In this document: positions 7,439-22,509 of the stretch, piece after piece
Layout: each line of letters begins with the position of its first letter
How positions within the stretch are numbered: the stretch's first letter is position 1
IMG/VR virus record: IMGVR_UViG_3300046454_000216
Span: 1-25,022 of that record
From: a virus
Reading direction: 5' to 3' (one strand)
Length of the DNA: 25,022 nucleotides
Made by a program: the position numbers and the translations under genes
The notes under the pieces: generated by a model
The model's input: the letters and a program-made list of their open reading frames with translations, nothing else
Told to the model about the DNA's origin: nothing
Database searches by the model: none

Positions 7439-8311
7439 ATGAGGCTCGTTCGCGGCTACGCCGGGGTACTGAGCACAACGTTTATGACCGACGAGACCCC
7501 CATTGACGCGGGGGCAGTCACGGTCACGGTTACTAACGCGGCTGGCGCGGTTGTAGCGTCTGGCGCTGCAACGACTCCGAGCACTGGAAACTACACGTTC
7601 CCTATGGCTCCGCAAACGGCCCTCGGGCCGTTAGTCGTTAGCTGGGTTAGCGCAACGCTAACGCAGACGACAAGCGCCGAAGTGGTCGGCTCGACCCTAA
7701 TCGCGCTACCTGACCTGCGGGCATCCGATCCCGCGTTCTCGAACACGGCCAAGTTCCCCACGGCCGCCCTGGCGGCGGCGAGGGATGCGGTAACCGACGA
7801 GTTCGCCCGCATCTGCGGACGCTCGTTCATCCCGCGTGGCAACACCTACACGGTGACGCTCGACAACACGGGCTATGTCCTATTGCCCGATGCCGACCTT
7901 AGGACGGTCGTTAGCGCATCGGTCGATGGCGTTACGCAAACGGGTCTGACTACAGACCCAATCGGCTTGGTTTACGGCCTTCCGTCGATGCAGGCGCTAA
8001 CGCTGCAAGAGCTTTGGGACGGGTCGATAGGCTCCGGGGCTCCCGGCCCCGGCCTGTGCGTCATCACCTACGAGTACGGGTTCACCCAGGTCCCTAACGA
8101 CTTGTATCGGGCCGCGATTCAGCGCGGCCGGTTCATCCTCGCGGCTATCGCGTCGGGCATTCCCGACCGTGCAACGTCTTTCGTTGCAACCGAGGGCGGG
8201 TCCTTCACCCTGGCGACGCCGGGTTCTGGCGTCTGGCAGACCGGCATTCCCGACGTTGACGCAGTGCTAGCCCGGTACACCATCGCGCCTAAGGGCGTGG
8301 TCGTGGCATGA
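7439..8311 (+). CDS. head-tail connector with N-terminal Ig-like domain
   Basis: A 290-residue protein. Residues ~1-85 (GAVTVTVTNAAGAVVASGAATTPSTGNYTFPM...LVVSWVSATLTQTT) look like an immunoglobulin-like beta domain. The following part (ALPDLRASDPAFSNTAKFPTAALAAARDAVTDEFARICGRSFIPR...VITYEYGFTQVPNDLYRAAIQRGRFILA) resembles gp6-type head-tail connector proteins. Position directly after the capsid supports this. The ATG has GGAGGGGGG upstream. Leu65 is encoded by TTA (7631-7633). The DNA has more GTTA/CTAA-type triplets than neighbouring genes, hinting at a different history. The connector assignment is by pattern and position. Confidence 0.72.
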   Translation: MRLVRGYAGVLSTTFMTDETPIDAGAVTVTVTNAAGAVVASGAATTPSTGNYTFPMAPQTALGPLVVSWVSATLTQTTSAEVVGSTLIALPDLRASDPAFSNTAKFPTAALAAARDAVTDEFARICGRSFIPRGNTYTVTLDNTGYVLLPDADLRTVVSASVDGVTQTGLTTDPIGLVYGLPSMQALTLQELWDGSIGSGAPGPGLCVITYEYGFTQVPNDLYRAAIQRGRFILAAIASGIPDRATSFVATEGGSFTLATPGSGVWQTGIPDVDAVLARYTIAPKGVVVA

Positions 8312-18132: not shown

Positions 18133-18495
18133 CTAGTTCGACGCCAAAGCCCTGCCGATGTGAACGACGACTGCCGGTGTTCCGATCTCACGGGGGACCA
18201 CAGGAGTCCCGATGCTGTCTGGGATCACGGGTGTTCCGATCTCACGGGGGACCACAGGAGTCCCGATGCTGTCTGGGATCACGGGCGGTGTTCCCCCGTA
18301 GCTGGGTGCCCTGGCCGGTCCCGCTGTCGTGACATGACCTGGTGGCCGCTCTGCCTGCGTGTTTGAACGCGCAACCTTGGTCTCTTCATACAGCCATGCC
18401 GTGCCGCTGGCAGCAAGCGGCACCACAGCTATCAAGGTGCCAACTACCTGCGAGATGTTAGCGAGCACGCTTAGTCGTTCACGGAAGACAGACAC
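18133..18495 (-). CDS. leftward membrane-anchored repeat protein
   Basis: A 120-residue ORF on the strand opposite to its neighbours. It starts with GTG after a GCGAGG site 6 nt upstream. Residues ~14-36 (ISQVVGTLIAVVPLAASGTAWLY) form one membrane helix. After a polar linker come four 9-residue units of the form IGTPV-x-P-x-x, arranged as a perfect 18-residue duplication (54 nt). It lacks Cys and catalytic motifs. I do not recognise a family. The orientation, the ribosome site and the in-frame repeat favour a real gene, perhaps one expressed from the prophage. A -10-like TAGAAT on the minus strand (18556-18551) could serve it, but no clear -35 is seen. Confidence 0.6.
   Translation of the reverse strand: MSVFRERLSVLANISQVVGTLIAVVPLAASGTAWLYEETKVARSNTQAERPPGHVTTAGPARAPSYGGTPPVIPDSIGTPVVPREIGTPVIPDSIGTPVVPREIGTPAVVVHIGRALASN
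18177..18284 (-). repeat. two exact 54-bp tandem repeats
   Basis: Copies 18177-18230 and 18231-18284 appear identical base for base. They lie inside the leftward gene in frame and encode 18 residues each. Each unit contains an internal 9-residue half repeat. Confidence 0.95.
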
Positions 18496-20370: not shown

Positions 20371-22443
20371 ATGACGAACGGTACTCGTTTTCGTGACCCT
20401 GGCCTCCGTAACGCGCAACTTCGCGCGGCGGCATACGGGCGGGTTTCTACGGCGGATCAGGTACTCGGGTACGGGGTTGCGGACCAAGATCAATCGTTCG
20501 ACCAATGGGAGCGCGAGAACCCCACGGCTACCGTGGTCGGCCGGTTCTACGACCTGGCCGTGAGCGGCGCACTCGAAACCCGCGACGAGATGGAAAAGGT
20601 CGAAGAACTCGCCCACGCGAAAAAGGTCAACTGCATCGTTGTCCCCAAGGTTGACCGCATCGGCCGGACCGTCCGGGCTTCCCTTCAGTGGGTCTGGCGC
20701 ATGCAGGACATCGGCGTTCACTTCATCTCGATTCATGAGCGCATCGACACCAGCGAGCCGTTTGGCATGGAACGCTTCATGCGCTACGTCGAGTTTGCCG
20801 AGATGGAGTATCAGCGCATCCGTGAGCGCACCATGGGCGGCAAGGAGATCAAGGTAGCCCTTGGCGGCTGGCCTGGCGGACCGGCGCCGTATGGCTTCGA
20901 AATCGTGGGGAAGGGGCAGCGGGGATCAACCCTAGGTCCCTGCGCTGCCGAGATCACCGTCTTGGAAGAGGCCGTCTCCCTGCTGGTGGACGAGGGATTC
21001 AACTACGGTCAGACCGCCACGGCGCTGAACTCACTGAGCCTCTTCAACCGGTCCGGCGGCCCGTGGGACGGGGCAAACCTTCATCTGCGACTGCGGCACA
21101 CCGCGCTTGACGGCTACGTGACGTACCGGAAGACCACCGGGTACGGCGCGAACAAGACCAAGGTGTGGGAAGACGGAACGCCGGTTTACGGCGAGTCGAT
21201 ACAGATTCCCGTCCCGCAGATACTTCCGGGCGAGAGGGTTACGGCACTCAGGGCGGCCATGAAGCGCTTGGAGCCGAAGAACGCCCGCCGCCCGAATGAG
21301 GAATACCCGCTGTCGAAGCGCATCCACGGCTCATGCGGTCACGTGTACGTGGGCAACATGGCGCGGACAAGTTACAACAAGCGTGGATACGTGTGCCAAG
21401 GAGGGCTCGCCTTCTACGTGAAGAACAAGGAAGAGCGCTGCGATGACGGGCGGCTCGACGCGGACGCTATTGAGCAAGCCGTGTGGGAGCAGGTCGTCAA
21501 GCTTCTGGGCGACGACAAGCGGCTTCGCGCCCTCGCCCAAGACTGGATAGCTGCGCTGCCCGGGAACCGGGACAAGTATCAGGAACGCGAAGCGTCCCTG
21601 ATCAAGCAGGTGAAGAAGCAGAAGGATCTTATTGACCGGCGAGTCGTGGACTACGTCAAGCAGGGGGTAGACGCCAAGATCATGACTGCCGCAACCAAGG
21701 CCCTGGAGAAGGAGCTTGGCGACATGGAGACGCAGCTTGCAGAGGCTCAGCACTGGCTCCAGCAAAACGAGCAGGCCGCCGGGCAGATCGAACGCATCAG
21801 CGCCCTAGCGTCTGGCGCTGCGGGTCGTCTGTTGTCGATGGGACGTGCCGAGCGGGCCGAGATCATCGCCATGTTTGATATCGAGGTCACTCCGCAGGAT
21901 CATCGGATCTTCGTGGACAATGGCGGTAACAAAGGCGAAGCCGTGGAGTGGCACTTGGAGACCGGGAGCCTTGTCCCTGATGCGGTCTCCGAGGACGAGT
22001 GGTCGAAGGTCGAGATGTTCTTGTCCGAGCGAGGCTCTATGCCCAACCTCCGGGGAGGGTCGCACCCGCGTTTGGTCGTGAACGGAATCCTGCTCAAGCT
22101 CCGCACGGGCGTTGCCTGGCGTGATGTCCCCGAGGAGTACGGCAACTGGCGGAAGGTGCAGCGTTGGCAATTCGACTGGATGCAGCGTGGCGTCTGGCCC
22201 GAACTGGTGGCGCTTCTGAACGAGCGGGGAGGCGGTAGCCCGGTCTACCGGGTGCCGCCGCTTCCGCCGCTCGTCATCACCGGGAAGCTGTTCGCGGACC
22301 TCATCACGTCCCTGGACACCGTGCCGGCGGAGAGCTTTAAAGCGGAGGGCGGAACGGTACACGCTCCGTATGGGAAAACCGGCCTATCCAGTCCAGCTAC
22401 TTCATATAGTCCGTGTACCTTTAGCCTCACCTACACCGGCTGA
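20371..22443 (+). CDS. int: large serine integrase with C-terminal DUF4096 (IS5-type) domain
   Basis: A 690-residue site-specific recombinase inserting the phage into the host chromosome. The N-terminal resolvase domain has AAYGRVSTADQ with nucleophile Ser26, then VVPKVDRIGRTVRASLQWVWRM. A recombinase domain follows (~165-330). The zinc ribbon region shows HGSCGHVYVGNM...GYVCQGG...ERCDDGRLDADAIEQAV. A coiled coil lies at ~405-475. Residues ~539-617 (VSEDEWSKVEMFL...GGSHPRLVVNGILLKLRTGVAWRDVPEEYGNWRKVQRW...GVWPELVALL) match the DUF4096 domain that opens IS5-family transposases. A ~70-residue tail ends the protein. The ATG has GGAAGGA upstream, partly within a 5-bp stem. At 690 residues it exceeds the usual ~470-620. 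Confidence 0.92.
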   Translation: MTNGTRFRDPGLRNAQLRAAAYGRVSTADQVLGYGVADQDQSFDQWERENPTATVVGRFYDLAVSGALETRDEMEKVEELAHAKKVNCIVVPKVDRIGRTVRASLQWVWRMQDIGVHFISIHERIDTSEPFGMERFMRYVEFAEMEYQRIRERTMGGKEIKVALGGWPGGPAPYGFEIVGKGQRGSTLGPCAAEITVLEEAVSLLVDEGFNYGQTATALNSLSLFNRSGGPWDGANLHLRLRHTALDGYVTYRKTTGYGANKTKVWEDGTPVYGESIQIPVPQILPGERVTALRAAMKRLEPKNARRPNEEYPLSKRIHGSCGHVYVGNMARTSYNKRGYVCQGGLAFYVKNKEERCDDGRLDADAIEQAVWEQVVKLLGDDKRLRALAQDWIAALPGNRDKYQEREASLIKQVKKQKDLIDRRVVDYVKQGVDAKIMTAATKALEKELGDMETQLAEAQHWLQQNEQAAGQIERISALASGAAGRLLSMGRAERAEIIAMFDIEVTPQDHRIFVDNGGNKGEAVEWHLETGSLVPDAVSEDEWSKVEMFLSERGSMPNLRGGSHPRLVVNGILLKLRTGVAWRDVPEEYGNWRKVQRWQFDWMQRGVWPELVALLNERGGGSPVYRVPPLPPLVITGKLFADLITSLDTVPAESFKAEGGTVHAPYGKTGLSSPATSYSPCTFSLTYTG
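22323..22343 (-). repeat. dispersed repeat site 14 (inverted, core GCTTTAAAGC)
   Basis: On the minus strand: GCTTTAAAGC (a perfect palindrome, one change from the core), TCT, CCGCCGGC. It lies inside the 3' tail of the integrase gene. Confidence 0.8.
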
Positions 22444-22509
22444 CCTGCTCTCGGGCGACTTTAAGCGTGTCCTCAGGGCCCCCTTAGAGTCGGCCCCTAC
22501 CCTTGCTCC

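Follow-up and report, generated by a model that had tools for sequence, protein, structure and literature searches.

A phage large serine integrase with an IS5-type DUF4096 domain inserted in the terminal hairpin of its zinc domain

The crystal structure of LI integrase shows a zinc domain that ends in a beta13-beta14 hairpin and touches 9 bp of the attP half-site, at its outer end (PMC3783163). The equivalent of strand beta14 in phiC31 integrase holds Ile582, a residue required to bind the directionality factor (RDF) gp3 (PMC5814800). We located this residue in ASITW of the 605-aa protein; MAFFT aligned the phiC31 C-terminus poorly with the inserted forms described below, and the strand assignment for phiC31 rests on PMC5814800. 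Extra domains are known from other large serine recombinases (LSRs): the multi-targeting, TndX-like enzymes bear DUF4368, a clade-marking domain of unknown function that has been linked to target choice (PMC10083194). Serine integrases are widely used as DNA integration tools, and the determinants of their choice of site and of direction are still being worked out. We describe a natural LSR family that has an extra domain at the point where the reading of DNA meets the control of directionality.

The window, meaning the whole stretch of DNA analyzed, is a virus contig of 25,022 bases (IMG/VR record IMGVR_UViG_3300046454_000216). Neighboring genes match the families of terminase large subunit, major head protein, tape measure, minor tail protein, and endolysin, so the contig comes from a tailed phage with a tape-measured tail, and the relatives of this phage suggest Streptomyces-like hosts. 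At positions 18176-18285, just before the endolysin gene, there is a tandem duplication of about 55 bp, with offset 56-bp matches against contig locus L043. The window is the first 25 kb of another record, IMGVR_UViG_3300046678_000420 (loci L171-L175; 89,947 bases), in which two related phages of ~44.9 kb stand head to tail. The two phages are 86-90% identical over long stretches, the first 38 bases of the record are repeated at its end, and the record has the look of two circular genomes joined in assembly.

The int gene (20371-22443, plus strand, as are all its parts given below) starts with ATG and encodes 690 residues, and its product is a temperate-phage integrase of the LSR class. Pfam analysis of this reading frame placed four domains above their curated cut-offs: the serine catalytic Resolvase domain at residues 19-165 (20425-20865; PF00239, E = 7.8e-24), the recombinase domain (RD) at residues 194-298 (20950-21264; PF07508, E = 4.1e-6), the zinc-ribbon part of the zinc domain (ZD) at residues 313-375 (21307-21495; PF13408, E = 1.3e-5), and DUF4096. 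The RVST motif (R24 V25 S26 T27) is kept in the family alignments, and Ser26 is likely the nucleophile; conservation of S26, R24, R96, and R99 indicates that the Resolvase-type catalytic residues are present. C322 and C342 of the zinc-ribbon domain are invariant in the family. The AlphaFold2 model has helices at 400-430 and 435-480, which form the coiled-coil region (residues about 400-480; 21568-21810), and alignment with outgroup LSRs places the terminal beta-hairpin after the coiled coil, as in LSRs generally. The tail after the hairpin (residues 641-690; 22291-22440) is variable and probably disordered, with a pLDDT mostly below 50 and a dN/dS of 0.51 for residues 621-690.

The fourth domain, DUF4096 (PF13340), was matched at residues 539-612 with an E value of 3.7e-16 and a score of 59.6 bits, covering 75 of the 76 model positions; the curated gathering cut-off of this model is 34.3 bits. 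A six-frame family search of the window placed it at 21985-22206. The NCBIfam IS5 transposase model matched residues 538-618, using only model positions 4-83 of 258, and a profile made from 25 Streptomycetaceae IS5 domains alone found the domain with an E value of 9.5e-17. The sequence-only reading, which had taken the first ~500 residues for a standard large serine integrase and seen a DUF4096 pattern at residues ~539-617, is thus borne out in both parts, and the PF13340 search it had proposed as a check gave a clear match. It had also allowed that an error might have created the fused frame, which is contradicted by a 92% identical homologue (L007/L040) that keeps all 690 residues in frame. 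This integrase was found on three other IMG/VR viral contigs with related sample numbers. The dN/dS between the window copy and this homologue was 0.145 for the whole protein and, by region, 0.032 for the catalytic part, 0.113 for the middle, and 0.227 for DUF4096, which indicates purifying selection on the DUF4096 region, though this region changes more quickly than the body of the enzyme. The Pfam score, the intact homologue, and the dN/dS values together rule out a sequencing error or a chance match as the source of the domain. As a side observation, positions 21985-22233 of the window also match positions 319-400 of PHROG phrog_6657, a phage family of 463 positions with unknown function, so a DUF4096 domain may lie near the C-terminus of another phage protein.

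The alignment with outgroup LSRs and the AlphaFold2 strands show that DUF4096 is not a C-terminal addition but an internal insertion between beta13 and beta14, the final hairpin of the zinc domain. Helix M (492-501) and beta13 (505-508) precede the insert (residues 492-508; 21844-21894), and beta14 (residues 634-640, LVITGKL; 22270-22290), a core strand of the zinc domain, follows it. Across this hairpin the outgroup LSRs without DUF4096 read ...LLEVRVKVINNTSS-PRLEITG..., in which PRLEITG is the equivalent of beta14 (longer form of the stretch, ...LLEVRVKVINNTSSPRLEITG...), and the DUF4096 integrases read ...LLDVRVTVTGPVP-(~105 aa)-LPPLRVEG... at the same hairpin. The insertion point was identical among the family members compared. 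The residues after DUF4096 align with LSR beta14 and not with the IS5 catalytic region, and the DDE nuclease domain was absent from the window integrase by Pfam. The earlier picture of a single fusion of two unrelated recombinase lineages is not supported: an LSR is indeed joined in frame to a homologue of the IS5 N-terminus, but there is no DDE part, the joined domain sits inside the hairpin, and the arrangement is an old family trait. Taken with the LI and phiC31 data, its position within the beta13-beta14 hairpin means that the insert sits where outer-site recognition meets directionality control.

Residues 520-643, modeled alone with 31 relatives, gave an all-helical structure with a mean pLDDT of 92.1. 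The DUF4096 part contains a helix at 566-579, short helices at 583-590, and a helix at 593-605, an order that fits a helix-turn-helix plan in which 593-605 would be the recognition helix. This putative recognition helix has a net charge of +3, and besides the order of helices the helix-turn-helix reading draws on the sequence pattern. The domain as a whole is weakly positive, with a net charge of +1 in the window copy and a mean of +1.4 in the family, and this does not strongly favor DNA binding. W544, R567, R578, W583, and G607 are invariant or nearly so in the family alignment. A Foldseek search of the domain model against the PDB gave no significant match, a sequence search of the PDB found no solved DUF4096 structure, and a BFVD search with the model gave one weak match (E = 0.011).

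The family survey that the sequence-only reading had called for revealed the same architecture in many relatives. We aligned 33 relatives, taken from viral contigs and from genomes, and detected DUF4096 at E ≤ 0.01 in 32 of them; the exception is L034 of Acidimicrobiales, an outgroup. To avoid circularity, the profile built only from the DUF4096 domains of the 25 IS5 transposases was also run against the family. Its matches to the family integrases had E values between 1.5e-23 and 0.05, with the best in some chromosomal members and the poorest in Arquatrovirinae, whereas the control L034 gave an E value of 3.3 and the 20 outgroup LSRs gave 0.4 or more, or no match. Five named Arquatrovirinae phage integrases carry the domain at the same place with scores of 17.8-27.8 bits, below the cut-off. 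The family profile matched 42 of 296 Streptomyces genomes and reached DUF4096 in 34 (counted by hand from the table), so about 11% of the sampled Streptomyces genomes, roughly one in nine, have an integrase with the domain. Among 395 genomes across the class, few matches reached DUF4096; most ended at or before profile position ~500, and the 20 of these that were taken further lack the domain. A single-protein scan of the genome contigs found no close relative. A direct tblastn of DUF4096 against phages yielded nothing but IS5 transposases of Paenibacillus and records without annotation, with no annotated integrase among them, and the family was therefore reached through the whole protein. Four Streptomyces chromosomal copies (L019, L028, L035, and L038) are broken by stop codons or frame changes and are probably decaying prophages.

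A tree of the enzyme body alone (residues 15-505, 495 columns, with DUF4096 left out; quick method, SH-aLRT) separated 53 integrases with DUF4096 from 21 without it by one change on a single branch, with a support of 100. The branch contains Streptomyces and Streptacidiphilus prophages and Arquatrovirinae phages. Pairwise distances of DUF4096 correlate with the RD distances (r = 0.92) and with the distances in the zinc/coiled-coil region (r = 0.91), as expected if the domain was inherited with the enzyme. The single change on the body tree fits a gain of DUF4096 when this integrase family was young, followed by inheritance with the enzyme.

We propose that DUF4096 is a helix-turn-helix-like DNA-binding module that would hang from the zinc domain, itself the module that reads the outer end of each half-site. 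Catalysis stays with the N-terminal domain, by serine-based strand exchange as in any LSR, and the inserted domain would add affinity or specificity through contacts with DNA past the usual ~25-bp half-site. It is plausible that the domain provides extra DNA binding or site choice; that it adds contacts beyond the zinc-domain footprint at the outer ends of the att site is the most likely reading, with about an even chance in our estimate. In its usual home, DUF4096 precedes the DDE nuclease, at the N-terminal side on which the DNA-binding domain of a transposase is usually found. A bolder version, which we put forward as tentative, is that these integrases gained from a transposase a third module for DNA recognition, one that reads outside the ~50-bp att site, so that they would use extended att sites somewhat like the arm sites of tyrosine integrases.

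The usual place of the domain in transposases argues against the strongest alternative, namely that DUF4096 is a protein-protein module that binds the coiled coils, the RDF, or a neighboring subunit and alters synapsis or excision, not DNA recognition. The position of the insert, however, fits a directionality role about as well as DNA contacts: it adjoins beta14, and phiC31 Ile582, in the equivalent strand, is needed for binding gp3 (PMC5814800). The weak net charge and the dN/dS of DUF4096, 0.227 compared with 0.03-0.11 upstream, would also allow a partner-specific interface. We regard this explanation as possible, at well under even chances.

It is unlikely that DUF4096 is simply an insert that the structure tolerates, one that does little itself and persists because it can fold well there, in an exposed turn of the hairpin. 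Hairpin turns do tolerate inserts, and the domain evolves faster than the enzyme body and has diverged strongly in Arquatrovirinae; however, it is kept in all 53 members with its invariant or nearly invariant positions, and its dN/dS of 0.227 also argues against this idea.

As to origin, we propose that a domain of the type that starts IS5-family transposases was inserted early into the beta13-beta14 turn of the integrase zinc domain. DUF4096 was seen in IS elements of distant control genomes and its combination with an LSR only in Actinomycetes here, which makes transfer from an IS5-type transposase to the integrase the likelier direction. A tree of the domain alone (84 columns) grouped all 25 IS5 sequences together with four integrase rows among them, so that two changes would be needed and related LSRs might have captured DUF4096 more than once. 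We consider repeated capture improbable, since the four stray rows are long-branched and rest on few columns, the 495-column body tree needs one change, and the members compared share an identical insertion point. We give a negligible probability to the idea that an IS5 element entered int recently or that an error joined two frames, even though IS5 transposases, the normal carriers of DUF4096, are common in Streptomyces genomes: the recent insertion is ruled out by the absent DDE domain, by identities of at most 33% to the 25 sampled IS5 domains, and by the one old change on the tree, and the same frame is found in the 92% homologue and across the family.

Prophage relatives show that the family integrates. 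One of them is L025 of Streptomyces sp. JH14, in which the int ORF itself runs, from position 8010 on, into a chromosomal gene that was present in 80 of 81 Streptomyces genomes searched and that we read from its sequence as being of the hydantoinase/dihydropyrimidinase type. The 5' part of this target gene was found at another place in that genome, and TTCAAG is all that the two junctions have in common. Such a short shared core is typical of serine integrases. The same kind of junction at the int end was found around 7956 in L023 (Streptacidiphilus). As the junctions lie inside the int ORF, the last ~30 integrase residues are encoded, after integration, by the hydantoinase-type gene of the host. 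The integrase tails of L020, L022, and L024 also look alike. In the JH14 genome (G006:C1:6128008-6294119), the halves of the split target gene are about 166 kb apart, more than a single ordinary prophage would span, and next to the left half stands another copy of the target gene, which has diverged. In the window, we propose 22409-22451 as the candidate attP; these 43 bp over the int stop codon are identical to a co-occurring related phage, with both flanks diverged, and their position agrees with the int-end junction of the JH14 prophage.

The LSR enzyme class is well known, but the family with inserted DUF4096 appears to be undescribed. A literature search on DUF4096 and PF13340 found no link to integrases, which is weak evidence, as most subscription papers and preprints were outside its scope. 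The family was apparently overlooked for two reasons, namely that the domain in many copies scores under the Pfam cut-off and that the enzymes are longer than a survey filter allows: the stricter quality filter of a large LSR survey kept only proteins of 400-650 aa (PMC10083194), which would drop most DUF4096 integrases (about 650-720 aa). If DUF4096 adds DNA recognition, the family would be a natural example of extending LSR specificity; if it acts in directionality, it would represent a new way of building such control into an LSR.

Among the closest known systems are the integrases of the Arquatrovirinae Streptomyces phages Nishikigoi, Animus, Spernnie, phiHau3, and Diane, which are 26-31% identical to the window integrase, share its full-length architecture, and have a DUF4096-like domain at the same place. 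Their domain scores of 17.8-27.8 bits, against the cut-off of 34.3, mean that it is missed by standard annotation, whereas the window copy is far closer to the IS5 form. The phiJoe integrase was considered as a characterized family member and set aside, because the paper on it gives a different catalytic motif (VRLSVFT) and other relatives. The integrase of phiC31 (Lomovskayavirus), also a Streptomyces phage LSR, shares the catalytic domain, RD, zinc domain, coiled coil, and terminal hairpin; it differs from the window integrase in that its beta13 and beta14 are linked by a short loop from which DUF4096 is absent. The IS5-family transposases, which combine DUF4096 with DDE, share the homologous domain, but the window integrase, an unrelated serine enzyme with no DDE domain, carries it internally and close to its C-terminus. 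The DUF4368-bearing, TndX-like LSRs are likewise a clade marked by an extra domain, although that domain is different from DUF4096.
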